Both the position numbers and the translations under genes were made by a program. From positions 1 through 60,909 of the forward strand of contig JAFYAC010000026.1 in the NCBI GenBank assembly GCA_017540905.1: a stretch of 60,909 bases of DNA, given 5' to 3'. The notes below the pieces were generated by a model. It searched no databases. It was not told the DNA's origin and saw only the letters and a list, made by a program, of their open reading frames with translations. Below, piece after piece: positions 23,988 through 31,911 of this stretch (position 1 is its first letter; every line of letters starts with the position of its first letter). This DNA is from Kiritimatiellia bacterium. Its GTDB lineage: Bacteria; Verrucomicrobiota; Kiritimatiellia; CAIQIC01; Lenti-01.

Positions 23988-25727
23988 ATGGCTAAAAAGA
24001 AAAAACCCGCCGTCGAAATGGATGCCGAGCGCGCCAAGATGATGGCCATGTATGAATCCACCCTCCTCGATTTCGTCGAAGGCGGCATCGTAAAGGGAAC
24101 CGTGGTGGAAATCCGTCCCCAGGAAGTCCTCGTCAACATCGGCTACAAGTCCGAAGGCCTCCTGCCCGCAACCGAATTCGAAGACATCTCCGCCGTCCAG
24201 GTCGGCGACGAAGTCGACGTCATGCTCCTGCGTCTCGAAGACGAAAACGGCATGGTCGTCCTCAGCAAGACCCGCGCCGAACAGCAGCGCAACTGGGACC
24301 GCGTCCTCACCTCCTGCGAAGAAGGCGCCATCGTCACCGGCCTCGTCAAGGGCAAGGTCAAGGGCGGTCTGCTCGTCGACGTCGGCGTCGACGCCTTCCT
24401 GCCCGGCTCCCAGATCGACGTCATCCCCGTGCGCAACCTCGACGACTTCCTCGGGCAGTCCCTCGAGTGCAAGGTCATCAAGATCAACAAGGAACGCCGC
24501 AACATCGTCCTCTCCCGCCGCGACCTCATCGAAGAGCAGCGCCGCGAGCAGAAGAAGAAACTCCTCGCCGAGATCCAGCCCGGCCAGACCCGCACCGGCG
24601 TCGTCAAGAACATCACCGACTTCGGCGCGTTCGTCGACCTCAACGGCATGGACGGCCTGCTGCACATCACCGACATGTCCTGGGGCCGCATCAACCACCC
24701 CAGCGAAGTCGTGCACGTCGGCCAGGAACTCGAGGTGGTCGTCCTCGACGTCAACCAGGAGAAGGAGCGCATCTCCCTCGGACTCAAGCAGAAGCAGCAG
24801 AATCCGTGGGAAGAGATCGAGCTCAAGTACCCCAAGGGAACCCGCGTCCACGGCAAAGTCGTCAACCTCGTCCCCTACGGCGCGTTCGTCCAGCTCGAAG
24901 ACGGCGTCGAAGGCCTCGTCCACGTTTCCGAGATTTCCTGGACCAAGCGCGTCGCCCGCGCTTCCGACGTCCTCAAGGAAGGCGACGAAGTGGACGCCGT
25001 CGTCCTCAACGTCAACAAGGAAGAGCAGAAGATCTCCCTGGGCATCCGCCAGACCGAGGCCAATCCGTGGGACGACGTGGTCAGCAAGTACCCGCTGGGC
25101 TCGCGCGTCAAGGGCAAGGTCCGCAACTTCACCAACTACGGCGCCTTCGTCGAGCTGGAAGAAGGCGTGGACGGCATGATCCACGTTTCCGACATGTCCT
25201 GGGCCCGCAAGATCAACCACCCCTCCGAAGTCCTCAAGAAGGGGCAGGAAGTCGAAGCCATGGTCCTGGAAGTCTCCCCCGAGAACCAGCGCATCTCCCT
25301 TGGCCTCAAGCAGGCGCAGGAAGACCCGTGGTCCGGCATCTCCAACCGCTACCACATCGGGCAGCTCATCAAGGGCAAGGTCTCCAAGCTGGCGAGCTTC
25401 GGCGCGTTCGTCGAACTCGAAGAAGGCGTGGACGGCCTGGTGCACATCTCGCAGATCAGCGACGACCACGTCGCGAAGATCCGCGACGTCCTCCAGCCCG
25501 GCCAGGAAGTCGAAGCGCGCGTCATCAAGATCGACCCGATCGACCGCCGCATCGGCCTTTCCATCAAGGCCGCGCAGCTTCCGGACGAACAGTTCGAAGT
25601 GGACGACTCCATGCTCGAAGGCCTCCGCCCCGGCGAAGACCTCGTCGACCTGGCTGGCGCCTTCGACGCCGCCCTCGGCGGTGCCGACGTCTGGTCCCCC
25701 GGCTCCGGCAAGAAGGACGAGGAATAA
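23988..25727 (+). CDS. rpsA: 30S ribosomal protein S1
   Basis: A 579-residue protein with six S1 (OB-fold) domains beginning near residues 28, 110, 199, 284, 371 and 458. Domains 3-6 share the strong RNA-binding pattern KGKVxNxxxYGAFVELEEGVDGLVHVS; domains 1-2 are the divergent ribosome-binding pair. S1 brings structured or weak-SD messages to the 30S subunit. Codon use is strongly C-ending, as in rpsB and tsf. The frame is open 55 codons further upstream, but MAKKKKPAVEM at 23988 is the natural start. A perfect terminator follows. Confidence 0.96.
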   Translation: MAKKKKPAVEMDAERAKMMAMYESTLLDFVEGGIVKGTVVEIRPQEVLVNIGYKSEGLLPATEFEDISAVQVGDEVDVMLLRLEDENGMVVLSKTRAEQQRNWDRVLTSCEEGAIVTGLVKGKVKGGLLVDVGVDAFLPGSQIDVIPVRNLDDFLGQSLECKVIKINKERRNIVLSRRDLIEEQRREQKKKLLAEIQPGQTRTGVVKNITDFGAFVDLNGMDGLLHITDMSWGRINHPSEVVHVGQELEVVVLDVNQEKERISLGLKQKQQNPWEEIELKYPKGTRVHGKVVNLVPYGAFVQLEDGVEGLVHVSEISWTKRVARASDVLKEGDEVDAVVLNVNKEEQKISLGIRQTEANPWDDVVSKYPLGSRVKGKVRNFTNYGAFVELEEGVDGMIHVSDMSWARKINHPSEVLKKGQEVEAMVLEVSPENQRISLGLKQAQEDPWSGISNRYHIGQLIKGKVSKLASFGAFVELEEGVDGLVHISQISDDHVAKIRDVLQPGQEVEARVIKIDPIDRRIGLSIKAAQLPDEQFEVDDSMLEGLRPGEDLVDLAGAFDAALGGADVWSPGSGKKDEE

Positions 25728-25757: not shown

Positions 25758-25791
25758 CGCGGCGCGGAGCAATCCGCGCCGCGCGTTTTTT
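25758..25791 (+). terminator. Intrinsic terminator of rpsA
   Basis: An eleven-pair perfect stem (CGCGGCGCGGA/TCCGCGCCGCG) with a GCAA loop is followed, after two bases, by six T. It lies 30 bases after the stop. Confidence 0.92.
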
Positions 25792-25819
25792 CAGCCGCAA
25801 CCCCGGCCCGCCCGGAAGT

Positions 25820-26022
25820 TTTCCAATGGTTGGAAACTTTTTTTCCAATGGTTGGAAAATCCGGACCGTTTTTTCCAATGGTTGGAAACTTTTTTTCCAA
25901 TGGTTGGAAAATCCGGACCGTTTTTTCCAATGATTGGAAAACTTTTTTCCAATGATTGGAAAATTCGCCCTTGTTTTTTCAATGATTTGTAAAAATTGAC
26001 AACATTTTTCCAATGGGATTGT
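25820..26022. repeat. Array of 17-bp palindromes with 52-bp period
   Basis: Six intact palindromes, arms TTTCCAA/TTGGAAA around a three-base centre, start at 25820, 25842, 25872, 25894, 25924 and 25946. Spacing alternates 22 and 30 bases, so the true unit is a 52-base pair of palindromes, separated by T-rich linkers and, in two units, by ATCCGGACCG. The first four have centre TGG, the next two TGA. Two degenerate copies follow near 25976 and 26005. The array is AT-rich in a GC-rich genome and begins 29 bases after the rpsA terminator. Confidence 0.92.
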
Positions 26023-26652
26023 CAGGTGAAACCCTTGCCTTTTGCGTGGTTCGGCTGGCCAGTAGGGGCCGACCTCCGGGCGGCCCGTCATGGGCCATCC
26101 TGCTACACGGCCCGCCCGGAGGTCGGGCCCTACCAGGGGGGAGGCGACAAGAAATCGCAAGGTTTTCGCATGGCAAATCCAATGGGCTGAGTCCGCAGGT
26201 CGCTTCAAGGACATGCCAGGAACACCCCGTCCGTGCGGCCGCGACGAAGCGCGGCCCTCCCCGGGCGTTTTCCTCCCGCATGGTCGCGCGGAAGCGCGAC
26301 CGGAGCGCTCTCCATGGGGAAATGGCTGGTGGCCGAGGGCACAACCGGCTCTAGTACATCGCAAGGCTCGGTCTTTCGGATGTTTCTGGTAGGGCGGCGA
26401 GTCCCTTCGCCGCCGTGTGACTGGCAAGCGCATGGAAAGCTTTGCATTTGGCTTCATGCGGTGGCCCATTTGCACGGCGGGCAGGGGACTGCCCGCCCTA
26501 CCAGCCCGACACATGCGATTATGATGTGCTGGGAGGGATTGGCTTCGTCCGGGCTGTGTCCACAGGGCGCTTCGGGGAGATGCCGGGAACACTCCGTTCG
26601 CGCGGCCGCGACAAAGCGCGGCCCTCCCGCTGCGCCAAGCAGTGGCAAGGGG
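26023..26652. repeat. Mosaic of dispersed GC-rich palindromes, no gene
   Basis: No gene is supported. A long hairpin lies at 26062-26133 (GTAGGGGCCGACCTCCGGGC with its complement), repeated almost unchanged at 32440-32511. A CGCGGCC-GCGACAAAG-CGCGGCC type motif is at 26235-26262 and 26599-26626, with further copies near 33.0 and 45.0 kb. A GGTCGCGCGGAAGCGCGACC palindrome is at about 26282-26301. A CACGGCGGGCAGGGGACTGC motif is at 26474, repeated at 32577. The segments look like successive insertions of small palindromic elements. Confidence 0.7.
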
Positions 26653-29600
26653 TCAGTCGGAGGGGGCGTCTGGGGAGACGCGGAGGGTGCCGAACCAGGT
26701 GGCGTCGAGGTTGGTGCGAAGGGTGATGTCGGCGCCGGTGCCGGGGCCGAGGTCGTTCGTGAGCGGGGCGGAGAGGAGGTTCGTGCGGTACAGCAGCCGG
26801 TACCAGCGGCCGGTGCGGGAGGCGAAGCGGAAGACGGCCTGTGTCGCCGTGGTCAGGTCCTGCCGGAGTTCGAGCTTGAGGACGCTCGCGGCGTCGGTGG
26901 GGCAGGTGTCGGCCAGGTATTCGTCCCAGGTGGTCATGCCGTCGGAGTCGGCGTCGGCGGCGGGGGCGAAGGCGGGGGCGTTGGAGGTGGCGCCGAAGCG
27001 GTCGGCGAGCCACTGGGCGAAGGCGTCTTCGGCGGTCCACACGCGGATGGGCAGGGCGACGGCATGGACGCCGTAGGCGTTGGAGGCGGTCATGGCGAAG
27101 TTTTGCGTTTCGTAGCCGGGTTCGGGGGCGTCGGGCGTGTAATGGAAGGTGTAGCGGCCGGACTTCGCGGTGGCGTCCCAGGAGTTGGTGACGAAGCCGA
27201 ACCGCCAGGCGTCCTCGGAGGAGTTTTTGATGGTGACGGCGGGTTGAGGGTCGCCGGAGACGGTGAATTCCACGCGGCCCTCGATGCCGACCTGGAAGGG
27301 GGGGATTTCCAAGGGCAGGGTGATGGCGGGGATGGCCCCGTCGCCGGCGGCGGTCGTGAATTGGAGTTCCCCGGAGAGGTCGGTCTCCCAACCGCGGCCC
27401 TGGGCCTTAACGGTGAGGTAGTAGGTGGTGGATGGGGCCAGGCCTTCCAGCAGGAAGACGTTTTCGGCGACGGCGGCGGGCATGCCGTCGAGCGGCACCG
27501 CGGCGGCGGCGGCAAGGGTGATGTGGAGGTCGTGGACGTTGGCGATGCGGTTGCCGCTGCGCAGCAGACGGAAGATGGTACCGGCGGGCTGCCCCGCGCT
27601 CCACGCGTGCCGGTTGGTCGCCGTCGTGGAGTTCAGCGAGAAGGTTTCGACGTCGGTGAAGGTCGCCCCGCCGTCCCGGCTCTCCTGGAGCTTGAGGGTG
27701 GCGAGACCGTCCATGGAGCGCCCCGCCAGCGCAATCGCGGAAACGCGGTCCAGCGCCGGGAACTGCAACCAGGCGGAAGTGTTCCTGAAGGAGACGAAGC
27801 CCTTCGACCCGATTCCGCTCGCGGCGCCCTTGTCGTATACCGACATCCCGGAGAACGTCCACGTCCCGATTGCGGTTTCCTGGGTCTTCACGGAGGATGA
27901 CGTCTCGGACGCGGGCAGGTATTCCCAGTCCTGGAAGTCCACGTCGATGGTGGAGACGCCGCCCGCGCCGTCGATGTGCCAGACGTTCAGGATGTAGTTG
28001 GTGGCGCCTTCGATGCCGGTCCACGAGACGAGGGCCTGCGTGGCATCCGCGCCGTCCAGCACGGCGACGGGCCGCTCCAGGGAGTCGGTGGTGAAGCTGC
28101 GCGGCCCGCTGACGGCGTGGCCGACGTGCAGGCGCCAGTAGTAGAGCGTGTCGGGGAGGAGGTTTTCGATGGTGCAATCGACGTAGGTCTCCCCGAAGCC
28201 GCCGACGGTCCCCGCCCAGAGCTTGTTGCCGAAGGAGGTGCTCGTGCCGTACTCGAAGATGACGTCCAGTTGGTTCGTGGTGTTGGCGACGACGGTGCCG
28301 GAGAGCACCGCGGCGACGGCCGTGGCCAGGGTTTCGTCGGTCGCGATCACGGGATCGGGCTGCACCTCGTTGATGGTGACCGAGGCGGGGAAGACGAACT
28401 CGGCGGCGGGCCAGGCCGCCCCAGCCTGGACGGAAACCGTGGCGGCATAGGTCCCGACGTCGACGGGCGCGGAGACGCTCTCCTCCGCCCCTTCGGCAAG
28501 GTACCGGACCGTCCAGACGGCGTTGGTCGGGGTGACATGGAAATCGTTGGTGTGGGCGGTGCCGTTCCAGTCGACGGTGATTTCGGCGGCGAGTTCGCAG
28601 GCAACCTCGACTGGAAGCATGGAGACGAGGAGGATGTTGTCGATGTCGAGTTGCTTGGAGGAGGTGCCGCCGTCGGTGCGGAGACGGAAGTGGGCGCCGT
28701 CGGGGATGCCGAGGCCGACGAGGACGACGTTGGTGAGGCCGGCGGCCTTGGCGGTGGGGACGGAGGCGTAGGTTTCCCAGGTGGCGCAATCGTTGGTGGA
28801 GGCTTCGACGAGGATGTTTGGGGTGCCGGTGTTGGAGCCGTAGCGGCCGAAGAAGAAGGAGAGGATGTGGAGGCCGTTGGTGAGGGGGCCGGCGAGCGTC
28901 AGCGTGGCGTTGGTGCGGGTGCGCATGGCCTGGGCGCCGATGCGTTTGTCCTTGTCGGTCTTCCCGATGATGGTTTCGGGGGAGAGGGTCCAGACGCGCC
29001 CGGAGTTGGTGAAGGTGACGGTGGGGGGATAGTAGGCTTTGGAGACATTCTCGAAATCGAGGAAGAAGGTTTCGGTGCGGCCTTCCCATTCGGCGGGGTC
29101 GTGGTCGCCGTCGCAGGCGTTGCCGACGTGGTCGCCGTCGTAGTCTTCCTGGCGGGGGTTGTATTCGGCGGGGCAGTTGTCGATTTCGTTGGGTACGGCG
29201 TCGCCGTCCATGTCGGGGTCGCAGTCGTCGCCGTAGCCGTCATCGTCGATGTCGGACTGGATGGTGTTGGCGGTGTCGGGGCAGTTGTCTTCGTCGTCGA
29301 GCAGGCCGTCGGCGTCGGTGTCCACGCGAGCGAGGCGGAGGGCGCCGTTGGCCTGGTTTTTGTTGAGCTTGCCGGGGGTGGCGTTGGTGGAGGACCAGGC
29401 GGGGAGGGCGTAGAGGCCGGGGTCGGTGCAGCCGGTGCGGACGTCGTCGGGGCATTGGAGGGAGAAGGCCGCGGCGGTGGGGGAGGTACCGAGGCAGTGG
29501 AGGTAGTTGGCGGCGCCGCGGGCGACGTCGGTGGAGACGCCGGTGGGGAGCTTCATTTCCACGAAAGCGTTGGTGGAGGCCAGGGCCACGGCGTCCACGA

Positions 29601-31911
29601 CGGCGCCGGCGGCGTTCTTGAGAATCAGCATGCACGGGTTTTTCTCCGTGTTGTCGGCGAGGAGGTTGGTGTTGGCGATGACAAAGTCGCAGTTTGGGGC
29701 TCCGGGGGTGCCAGCGACGAAGAATCCGATTGGATTTCCGAATTTATCGGTGACACCATCGTCAGGTATGACGCAATCGTCTGGGATGGTGCAGTGCCAG
29801 CGGGACAGGGCGGATTTGGTGAAGCATTCGAGCTTCCAGCCGGAGAGGTCGAGGCCGGCGGCGCCGACCAGCTCGACGAACTCGTTGGTGGCGCCGGAGG
29901 TCTTGACTTCGTTGATCAGGACGTCGTTGAGGTTGGTCGCGGCGGCGCTGCCCGGGAAGGTGTAGCTGCGGACGGCGGAGGAGAGGGGGCTCCAGCCGCC
30001 GGGGCCGTCGAAGGCGAGTGAGACGTAGTAGTCCATGGAGCTGCCGGCGGACTGGGCGCCGTTGGTCGCGGCGGAGAGCCAGGCGGTGCCGGCGGCGTTG
30101 GTCATCGCGGCGGTGTGCCAGTCGCCGCCGTCCACGCGGAAGAGCGCCGTCATCGCGAGGTTCGACGCGAGGACGTTGGGGATGGCCGTCGCCGCGAAGC
30201 GGAAGTCGTCGGAGGCCAGCGGTGCCGAGGAGTCGCGGTCGGCGGCGCGGAGGGCGACGTCGGTGAGGCTTGCGTTGGCTTCGGCGACGGCCAGGTGGGT
30301 GCCTGGGGTCGCCGCGGAGACGTCCGCGATGGCCCACTCGGCGGCGTGCCAGGTCGCCATCGGCTCGGTGACGCCGGGGACGCGGGAGGCGGCGGAGGCG
30401 GTGTAGTTCCACGCCCTGCCGGTGCCGTCGACGCCGATGGCGCCGTAGATGTCGTGGACGGCGCCGGCGGCGTTGCGCAGGACGATGGCGTCGTCGCCGT
30501 CGGCGTAGCCGATGCCTTCCCATGCGGCGTCGGGGACGGTCCCCCACGCGCGGCGGGCTTCGTTGGTGTCGTACGCGAGCCAGCAGGCCGCGCCGGCGGC
30601 AAGGACGATGCCGTCGAGGGAGCGGGTTTCGGCGGCGACGGAGGAGCCGTCGGGGTAGAGTTCGAGGGTGTAGCCGGCCAGGTCGAGGGGGCCGTTGCCG
30701 GTGTTGCAGATTTCGACGTAGTTGGCGGCGGGGTTGGCGGGGTTGTGGACCAGCTCGGAGAGGATCGCGACCGGGGTCAGGCCGCCCACTTCGTCGATCA
30801 TGTGGAAGTCGCTGAAGACGAGGAAATGGTCGGAGGCGTTCGTGCTGGAGGCGGGGTCGGGGAGCGGGCCGGGCTTGCGGAGGCCGGGCGAGGCGGCGGA
30901 GTCGTCGGCGGAATAATAGACTTCGGCGACAGGCGCGCCGTAGCTGCTGGCCATGATCTCGGGGCTGAAGAGGATGTAGTCGAGGCGGTAGATGCCCAGG
31001 CCGTCGCCGCCCTTCCAGTTGGTCACCCACTTGGCGGCGGTGCCGGTCTGGAAGGCGTCCACGGGGCGGACGTCGCCGAAGCGCTCGGTGGGGTAGGGGC
31101 GGTAGTCCATCACGAAGGATTCGCGGGCGGCGTTGGTGGCGTGCCAGGGGTGGTCGCGGCCGAGGACGAAGTCGGCGCCGGAGCCGAAGTTCCCGTTCGT
31201 TTCGTACTTGCGGAACTGGGCGTAGGTGAAGGAGGCCGGCTGGAAGGCCGCCGCCTCCGCCGGCGCGTCCCAGCGGCCCGGGGCCGAGTCGTTGAAGTCG
31301 CCGAGCACCACGTACTCCACGTCGTTCTCGTCCGCGCCCAGGATGCGCTCCTCGACGTACTCGCGGACGCGGCGCGCCTCCAGTCCGCGGTGGATGCGCA
31401 GCGGGATGCTCACCGTCGTCGCCGCCGAATGCACCGTGACCACGTGCAGCGGGTTGAGCGCGCCAGGGACCTCGATCTTCGCGTGGATCGGCCAGCGCAT
31501 GAACTCGACGGCGTCCGGGTCGTGGTAGTTCTCCTTGACGATGGCCGACGCCGCGATGGGCCAGGCGCTGAAGATGGCGACCTTGTCGCCGCTGGCCGTG
31601 GTGCGGCCGGTGCCGGGGGCGGGCATGAAGGCGCGGTGGGGCAAGGGCTTGGGCATCGTGGCGAAGAGGGCCGTGAGCGCCGCCTCCTGCGAGGAGGAGA
31701 CTTCCTGGATGGCGAGGATGTCCGGCTGCACCCGCTTGACGATGTTCGAGAACGAGGCGAAGGGGACGGGCTTGCTGTCCTTGAGGTTGCAGAGGTTCAT
31801 CGTCGCGATGCGCACGTCCACGGCGCGCGCCGCGGTTGCCGCCAGCAGGAAAACGCACGCCGCCGCCCACCCCAATATGCGATGATGAAAACCCTTGGAT
31901 GCTTTCTCCAT
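26653..31911 (-). CDS. Giant secreted protein: nuclease-like domain, lamin-tail domains, thrombospondin-3 repeats
   Basis: A 1752-residue exported protein. A signal peptide (GWAAACVFLLAATAARA) ends near residue 30. Residues about 31-365 are an endonuclease/exonuclease/phosphatase domain with IATMNLCNL, DILAIQEV, YVVLGDFND and SDHFLVF. Lamin-tail-like beta domains lie at about 375-540 (NYVEICNTGNGPLDLAGYTL) and 660-830 (NEFVELVGAAGLDLSGWKL). Calcium-binding thrombospondin type-3 repeats lie at about 862-942 (DTDADGLLDDEDNCPD). FN3-like strands occur near 1240-1330 and 1560, and a final Ca-binding DADSDGMTTWDEYL near 1650. Similar nucleases scavenge extracellular DNA, while the C-terminal part suggests surface attachment. 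No sorting signal was recognised at the end. The substrate (DNA, phospholipid or phosphoester) is not certain. Confidence 0.85.
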   Translation of the reverse strand: MEKASKGFHHRILGWAAACVFLLAATAARAVDVRIATMNLCNLKDSKPVPFASFSNIVKRVQPDILAIQEVSSSQEAALTALFATMPKPLPHRAFMPAPGTGRTTASGDKVAIFSAWPIAASAIVKENYHDPDAVEFMRWPIHAKIEVPGALNPLHVVTVHSAATTVSIPLRIHRGLEARRVREYVEERILGADENDVEYVVLGDFNDSAPGRWDAPAEAAAFQPASFTYAQFRKYETNGNFGSGADFVLGRDHPWHATNAARESFVMDYRPYPTERFGDVRPVDAFQTGTAAKWVTNWKGGDGLGIYRLDYILFSPEIMASSYGAPVAEVYYSADDSAASPGLRKPGPLPDPASSTNASDHFLVFSDFHMIDEVGGLTPVAILSELVHNPANPAANYVEICNTGNGPLDLAGYTLELYPDGSSVAAETRSLDGIVLAAGAACWLAYDTNEARRAWGTVPDAAWEGIGYADGDDAIVLRNAAGAVHDIYGAIGVDGTGRAWNYTASAASRVPGVTEPMATWHAAEWAIADVSAATPGTHLAVAEANASLTDVALRAADRDSSAPLASDDFRFAATAIPNVLASNLAMTALFRVDGGDWHTAAMTNAAGTAWLSAATNGAQSAGSSMDYYVSLAFDGPGGWSPLSSAVRSYTFPGSAAATNLNDVLINEVKTSGATNEFVELVGAAGLDLSGWKLECFTKSALSRWHCTIPDDCVIPDDGVTDKFGNPIGFFVAGTPGAPNCDFVIANTNLLADNTEKNPCMLILKNAAGAVVDAVALASTNAFVEMKLPTGVSTDVARGAANYLHCLGTSPTAAAFSLQCPDDVRTGCTDPGLYALPAWSSTNATPGKLNKNQANGALRLARVDTDADGLLDDEDNCPDTANTIQSDIDDDGYGDDCDPDMDGDAVPNEIDNCPAEYNPRQEDYDGDHVGNACDGDHDPAEWEGRTETFFLDFENVSKAYYPPTVTFTNSGRVWTLSPETIIGKTDKDKRIGAQAMRTRTNATLTLAGPLTNGLHILSFFFGRYGSNTGTPNILVEASTNDCATWETYASVPTAKAAGLTNVVLVGLGIPDGAHFRLRTDGGTSSKQLDIDNILLVSMLPVEVACELAAEITVDWNGTAHTNDFHVTPTNAVWTVRYLAEGAEESVSAPVDVGTYAATVSVQAGAAWPAAEFVFPASVTINEVQPDPVIATDETLATAVAAVLSGTVVANTTNQLDVIFEYGTSTSFGNKLWAGTVGGFGETYVDCTIENLLPDTLYYWRLHVGHAVSGPRSFTTDSLERPVAVLDGADATQALVSWTGIEGATNYILNVWHIDGAGGVSTIDVDFQDWEYLPASETSSSVKTQETAIGTWTFSGMSVYDKGAASGIGSKGFVSFRNTSAWLQFPALDRVSAIALAGRSMDGLATLKLQESRDGGATFTDVETFSLNSTTATNRHAWSAGQPAGTIFRLLRSGNRIANVHDLHITLAAAAAVPLDGMPAAVAENVFLLEGLAPSTTYYLTVKAQGRGWETDLSGELQFTTAAGDGAIPAITLPLEIPPFQVGIEGRVEFTVSGDPQPAVTIKNSSEDAWRFGFVTNSWDATAKSGRYTFHYTPDAPEPGYETQNFAMTASNAYGVHAVALPIRVWTAEDAFAQWLADRFGATSNAPAFAPAADADSDGMTTWDEYLADTCPTDAASVLKLELRQDLTTATQAVFRFASRTGRWYRLLYRTNLLSAPLTNDLGPGTGADITLRTNLDATWFGTLRVSPDAPSD

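Follow-up and report, generated by a model that had tools for sequence, protein, structure and literature searches.

A palindrome arrayed downstream of rpsA in a Kiritimatiellia bacterium was found to recur throughout the genome of this organism and across much of its class, with neighboring copies lying almost only two, three or four helical turns apart, whatever their center or orientation. Since spacing by whole turns puts the palindromes on the same face of the DNA, the best reading of these sequences, to which we give about an even chance, is that a sequence-specific protein, probably one that organizes the chromosome, binds them cooperatively along one face. A cooperative same-face array had been the favored part of the original prediction for the rpsA locus; it appears well supported by the sequences compared here, and at a far larger scale, as phased copies are present genome-wide.

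The array downstream of rpsA

In the window, that is, the whole stretch of 60,909 nucleotides analyzed, a pattern scan for TTTCCAA-TGR-TTGGAAA found six exact 17-bp copies on the + strand, spanning 25820–25962, with TGG at the center of copies 1–4 and TGA at that of copies 5 and 6. Their spacing is 22, 30, 22, 30 and 22 bp; a decayed copy 7 follows after a further 30 bp, and beyond it there is a half-site near 26007 (Table 1). The six intact copies, the 22/30 alternation, the two kinds of center and the decay at the right-hand end had all been predicted and were re-found by exact and mismatch scans. When up to three mismatches were allowed, the 60.9-kb window gave 8 matches, all of them within the array and two of them overlapping on copy 7; 100 dinucleotide shuffles of the window gave a mean of 0.70 matches and a maximum of 4, none of the 100 reaching 8. 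The 52-bp units 1 and 2 are identical, including the linker ATCCGGACCG, so that part of the regularity of this array looks like a recent tandem duplication of 52 bp. The satellite proposed as an alternative in the original prediction accounts for this duplication and for nothing beyond it.

Table 1. Coordinates of the array and of neighboring features in the window
Feature	Position	Strand	Remarks
rpsA (30S ribosomal protein S1)	23988–25727	+	PF00575 S1, 6 stretches, E 9.1e-103; gene call
GC-rich terminator-like hairpin of rpsA	25758–25783	+	Between rpsA and array; same in G012, similar in G013
52-bp unit 1	25819–25870	+	Two palindromes and linker
Palindrome copy 1 (TGG)	25820–25836	+	0 mismatches
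Palindrome copy 2 (TGG)	25842–25858	+	0 mismatches
52-bp unit 2	25871–25922	+	Identical to unit 1
Palindrome copy 3 (TGG)	25872–25888	+	0 mismatches
Palindrome copy 4 (TGG)	25894–25910	+	0 mismatches
52-bp unit 3	25923–25974	+	Diverged: TGA centers, different linker
Palindrome copy 5 (TGA)	25924–25940	+	0 mismatches
Palindrome copy 6 (TGA)	25946–25962	+	0 mismatches
Decayed palindrome copy 7	25976–25992	+	3 mismatches
Convergent downstream gene	26653–31911	−	Exo_endo_phos / LTD / TSP_3 domains; gene call

The array is AT-rich for its genome, as had been noted, with a GC content of 0.385 at 25800–25999 compared to mostly 0.6–0.7 in the surroundings. It was also confirmed to lie outside genes, between the terminator of rpsA and a convergent gene, starting 93 bp downstream of rpsA and ending 691 bp from the end of the convergent gene; the open reading frames that cross it in the program-made list look like run-ons. 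The scan for terminator-like sites gave 2 in the region versus 2.1 in shuffles and is by itself no evidence for the rpsA hairpin. An Rfam search of the window matched a tRNA only, and assigned no family to the array. Beyond the array, inverted repeats that are rich in GC and carry GTAG or GGTAG at an end are found at 26062–26133 and, located by eye, at about 26388–26420 and 26473–26502, one of them on the opposite strand. In appearance these are ordinary REP elements, distinct as a family from the phased palindromes, and similar repeats are present in the flanks of the same locus in two congeners, G012 and G013.

The rpsA gene of the window (genome G000) is 100% identical in both congeners. 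At this locus G012 matches G000 in the flank and in palindromes 1 and 2, and contains 3 sites spaced 22 and 29 bp; in G013 the terminator is similar and the array is absent. By eye, the decayed copy 7 of G000 appears from its linker to be the counterpart of copy 3 of G012, which is intact, and the two arrays would then differ by about two 52-bp units. The exact site was absent from the rpsA loci of G014, G018, G025, G007 and G009, up to 1.5 kb on either side. An array that is present, shorter or absent among relatives indicates that this locus is evolutionarily labile. The original prediction had named random single copies lacking fixed spacing, or absence from relatives with the same locus, as grounds to doubt a functional array, and on these the outcome was split: copies are phased genome-wide, and a congener lacks the array at the same place, the other having three sites.

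Abundance and helical phasing of the sites

The genome of the window contains 513 sites TTCCAA-N3-TTGGAA, and 421 matches to TTTTCCAATGRTTGGAAA (217 + 204; control 0), a sequence present in 15 of the 29 genomes of the order; the search proposed originally found this genome full of phased copies. In the phylum, TTTCCAATGRTTGGAAA was found in 31 of 387 genomes, every one belonging to the class of the window. With the center left free, at least one site TTCCAA-N3-TTGGAA was present in 124 of 241 Kiritimatiellia genomes, 58 of which hold 50 copies or more, up to the maximum of 3044 in G417; a control pattern with the letters reversed gave 0–3 in the same 241 genomes. The other 117 genomes sampled from the class, close sister genera among them, have no site, implying that the system is dispensable.

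Of the 387 phylum genomes, 40 contained pairs of sites 20–50 bp apart; 39 of these belong to the class of the window, and the other is G078. The latter, from another class, has one local cluster of four sites (L292, G078:C52:13635-13744; spacing 33, 29 and 33 bp) and no further exact site in the genome. A scan of GTDB contigs for such pairs returned at least 112 stretches, labeled as Kiritimatiellae or relatives, Lentisphaerae, Verrucomicrobia or unnamed bacteria, with one Spartobacteria MAG and one Bacteroidales MAG among the matches listed. The Bacteroidales-labeled stretch (L161 2021-2077, JAFZEK010000143.1; GC 0.37) carries two sites, with near-sites in the interval and on the outside, and its binning or label may be wrong. 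In IMG/VR, only two viral contig stretches (L242 and L243) carry a phased pair; they are possibly from viruses of site-bearing hosts. Literature searches by the letters of the motif, and by repeats or nucleoid of Kiritimatiellota/Pontiella, gave no paper on the motif among the matches listed.

The phasing was most extensively sampled in a named set of 112 loci, which were chosen for holding a pair 20–50 bp apart. Their 221 neighbor spacings within that range fell at 20–22 (24 cases), 30–33 (192) and 40–42 bp (5), with none at 23–29, 34–39 or 43–50 bp. Stretches that had not been selected for pairs gave 31 (1), 32 (93), 33 (15), 52 (1), 64 (4) and 65 bp (1) in G417; 30, 31 (2), 42 (3), 71 and 84 bp in G105; 31 (4), 32 (3) and 63 bp in G004; and 31 bp (7) in G007. 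In G000, where stretches were chosen around arrays, spacings were 21 (1), 22 (33), 23 (1), 29 (2), 30 (17), 31 (17), 52 (1) and 60 bp (1). Among the pairs listed from the phylum scan (83, from 19 genomes), 81 were at 22 or 30–33 bp. Exceptions to the phase are a 27-bp spacing in G062 and G397, whose sequences are near-identical, and two of the four spacings of G179, which were 17, 18, 22 and 105 bp, one each, the 17 and 18 being out of phase. For G168, with 365 sites in its genome, the 42 kb of stretches held no site and provided no spacing data. Pooled spacings outside the named set were best fitted by a period of 10.4 bp (R 0.86, n = 216). For G000 alone a period of 10.5 bp gave R 0.77 and the best fit was 9.1 bp (R 0.90), because 22 and 30 are each 1–1.5 bp off whole turns.

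The linkers between phased sites were compared within and between arrays. Identity within arrays was 0.44 in G417 (9 pairs) versus 0.50 between arrays, and 0.44 in G000 (23 pairs) versus 0.48, shuffled linkers giving 0.35 and 0.32, respectively; in both genomes there is a loose common consensus, above shuffled. Hence in G417 and G000 linkers are no more alike within arrays than between them, and the rigid spacing outlives the linker sequence. Corresponding figures were 0.42 (3 pairs) versus 0.39 in G004, 0.56 (4 pairs) versus 0.42 in the small set of G007, and 0.46 (99 pairs) versus 0.37 in the named set, where the between-array figure mixes genomes. The greater likeness within arrays of G007 and the named set indicates that some arrays grow by copying, and linker pairs at least 90% alike numbered 1 in G000, 1 in G007 and 4 in the named set. 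In a tandem satellite adjacent units would be more alike than distant ones; the linkers gave a mixed picture on this point, with no such excess in G417 and G000, a slight one in the named set, G004 and G007, and identical units 1 and 2 in the window. Within a linker, the edges tend to be rich in AT and the middle rich in GC.

Placement between and inside genes

Counts of sites inside genes rest on a purpose-made gene caller with seeded codon usage. According to these calls, sites fall in genes rarely in some lineages (2 of 102 in G000, 6 of 114 in G417 or 17 of 265 with added contigs, 0 of 20 in G004, 1 of 13 in G003 and 0 of 11 in G007) and often in others (33 of 58 in G105 and 17 of 33 in G179). 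In G417, sites were present in 20 of the 31 gaps between convergent genes, 27 of the 43 between divergent genes and 83 of the 192 between genes in tandem, a distribution that is neither promoter-like nor terminator-like. The intergenic clusters of this genome are more regular than expected at random, lying on average 3625 bp apart with a coefficient of variation of 0.58, versus 0.82 and 0.79 in two nulls (0 of 2000 each), in a test that covered G417 only, 0.55 of its 6.7 Mb; against a null matched on gap length and orientation the values were 0.57 and 0.80 (0 of 2000). Site-adjacent proteins (546, from 33 genome groups) formed no cluster that extended to more than 5 groups, the largest being a receiver-domain signaling family, a common kind, and neither a common regulon nor an obvious common regulator was found among these 546 genes.

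Inside genes, the sites of GuaA and CarB of G179 fall within conserved motifs that align without gaps to PDB homologues, which implies that they arose without insertion. RNase R of G105 is one residue shorter at its site than the homologue. MetH, GH94 and HrpB-like proteins have their sites in the stretches that separate Pfam domains or at a domain edge, and a NamZ protein has them inside a domain. Two homologues of 4'-phosphopantetheinyl transferase from two MAGs carry two sites each in the same places, with 3 of 6 center bases different. At residues identical in both, codons were identical in 9 of 10 cases at the sites versus 62 of 139 elsewhere, which is suggestive only, as the pair was picked for having exact sites and the identity of the arms follows by construction.

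An in-frame array with a period of 31 bp lies in a sugar nucleotidyltransferase gene (L120 276-1094, SKLK01000250.1); of its six copies the first five are exact and the last has one mismatch. In alignment with PDB 7d72_K, residues 1–113 and 170–261 of this enzyme match residues 1–118 and 132–224 of the chain, and by this comparison the array is an insert of about 43 residues. The copies cycle through all three reading frames, so that the spacing here is a constraint on the DNA.

Candidate functions and known counterparts

Bacterial nucleoid proteins are mostly weakly specific, and the sequence-specific ones use few sites. Most likely, each TTTCCAA-N3-TTGGAAA palindrome would be the operator of one protein dimer, and dimers on neighboring palindromes would touch, being two, three or four turns apart on one DNA face. 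The AT-rich arms and the GC-rich linker centers may let the DNA bend round the protein, and the clusters would serve as loading or bridging sites of a sequence-specific nucleoid-organizing protein. A structural role appears most likely because the clusters are dispersed, have unrelated genes of any orientation as neighbors and show an unusually even spacing in one genome; together with the absence of a regulon, this dispersion and evenness point to chromosome organization. Two features of the rpsA locus argue against this reading, namely the absence of the array from G013 and the identity of its first two units. So do the 117 genomes of the class that have no site, the arrays grown by copying, the exceptions to the phase, the moderate fit of G000 to 10.5 bp and an excess of symmetric double changes in the arms, which would also suit a stem.

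More tentatively, and at somewhat less than even chance, the class may write its chromatin into sequence, with hundreds to thousands of even, phased clusters as candidate assembly sites of a nucleoid protein, kept even in genes, where their retention would cost inserts that cycle through reading frames. If so, with strict phase-locked sites numbering up to 3044, the class would be a natural case in which chromosome architecture could be read from sequence and the gain or loss of the whole system compared between sister species. It is also a case of protein sequences shaped by a DNA-level site, as by the array inserted in the nucleotidyltransferase across three frames.

A global transcription regulator, perhaps of the Lrp/AsnC kind, could use the sites as operators; this overlaps in geometry with chromosome-organizing sites, and as a separate explanation it is unlikely. 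According to a review (PMC2995911), archaeal Lrp proteins bind cooperatively to palindromic sites, one per dimer, which follow each other on the same face of the DNA at two or three helical turns, a distance that matches the spacings of 22 and 31–32 bp; the arrays described there are clusters of imperfect sites, unlike the fixed arms, the up to thousands of copies and the lack of a regulon found here. AsnC_trans_reg was matched in all 30 site-rich genomes, and also in 24 of 30 site-poor ones. Of 40 lrp loci compared (25 from the 30 site-rich genomes; 8 further fetched loci were left out), those of site-free sisters in the family of the window encode an Lrp that differs by eye from that of the window's genus at the turn of the helix-turn-helix. 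However, these proteins are closely similar, the difference was not seen by eye in site-free genomes of other families, and no helix-turn-helix residue in the 40 aligned proteins tracked the sites across families. Exact sites lie upstream of 3 of the 25 site-rich lrp genes (G417, G105 and G454), with near-matches in G059 and G468; moreover, the genes beside sites have no relation to one another, and sites are as frequent in convergent gaps as in divergent ones. For the spacing, Lrp remains the best precedent.

DUS and USS elements are many dispersed short sites, genes included, and known uptake or recombination signals are polar and non-palindromic. A signal of this kind (DUS/USS- or Chi-like), spread by preferential uptake or recombination, would explain the hundreds to thousands of copies, the in-gene copies made without insertion and the even spacing, and ComEC is encoded in 59 of 60 genomes. 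Yet ComEC fails to separate site-rich from site-poor genomes, and the sites are palindromic and stand in arrays locked to two or three helical turns, which uptake does not predict; we regard this origin as distinctly unlikely.

The same low likelihood is given to mobile palindromes, REP/REPIN-like or MITE-like, that a transposase, Y1 (RAYT) or another, would have spread. REP, BIME and REPIN elements are short intergenic palindromes, paired and in hundreds of copies, and the sites studied here are mostly intergenic in several lineages, patchy between genera and joined in G417 and G000 by linkers with a loose consensus. Y1_Tnp matches were found in 21 of 22 genomes, but equally in site-free ones, of which G018 and G023 had the most (14 and 17). 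Eight Y1 loci, a minority of the matches found, were read with flanks of up to 1.5 kb; of the 5 from site-rich genomes one (L064) had an exact site, about 1 kb off, so the palindromes do not flank the transposases read. Furthermore, the sites of GuaA and CarB are not insertions, and the phase holds with unrelated linkers. Rickettsia palindromic elements, which are palindromes within open reading frames, are longer insertions; of the sites described here, those of GuaA and CarB differ from them in this respect, although the array of L120 did expand in a gene.

An origin in DNA methylation and repair, which would create or maintain a highly iterated palindrome, appears very unlikely. The usual methylase targets are shorter than a 12-base bipartite site. 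This origin has been proposed for HIP1 of cyanobacteria (PMC4390886), and the likeness lies in a clade-specific palindrome that is hugely over-represented and lost in some lineages; HIP1 is, in the accessible part of that paper, a continuous GC-rich site of 8 bp tied to methylases, with no mention there of helically phased arrays, whereas the sites reported here are bipartite and phased. Overall, the set resembles highly iterated palindromes in abundance and Lrp-type arrays in geometry, with full membership established for neither.

Arms were exact in 916 sites and carried one mismatch in 259 in all stretches, while symmetric (Watson–Crick) double changes numbered 16, against 4.5 expected from unpaired doubles (none in G000 and G417, 4 in G105, 4 in G179, 1 in G007 and 7 in the named set). 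Dyad symmetry itself is therefore kept, which fits the DNA site of a dimer and equally a stem; the rarity of symmetric changes beside exact and singly broken sites favors fixed letters. RNA hairpins or bidirectional terminators, the former an alternative in the original prediction, would profit from this excess of symmetric doubles, from a very stable predicted fold of the array RNA (−81 kcal/mol, z −10) and from T-runs after some copies, but are highly improbable given the mostly fixed arm letters, divergent gaps occupied as often as convergent ones in G417, in-gene copies in all frames, a terminator already present at rpsA and a helical phase that they leave unexplained.

Partition or replication iterons, also proposed originally, are unlikely for sites that are dispersed genome-wide. 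parS, matS and similar elements are dispersed palindromic sites for a chromosome protein, in few copies near the origin or terminus, and thus akin to the present sites in the role suggested for them. As a partition centromere the palindrome was rejected, since a separate sequence like the parS consensus, TGTTNCACGTGNAACA, is present at 1–3 copies per genome in 22 of 30 site-rich and 25 of 30 site-poor genomes, 47 of 60 in all. It was not found in the other 13 (8 site-rich and 5 site-poor); its absence from the richest genome, G417, counts against this rejection. In nearly all rows listed the parS-like form was TGTTCCACGTGGAACA, in 1–3 copies per genome (G000:C102:46764-46779 and 46 other genomes), a variant with CC/GG in place of the usual TC/GA.
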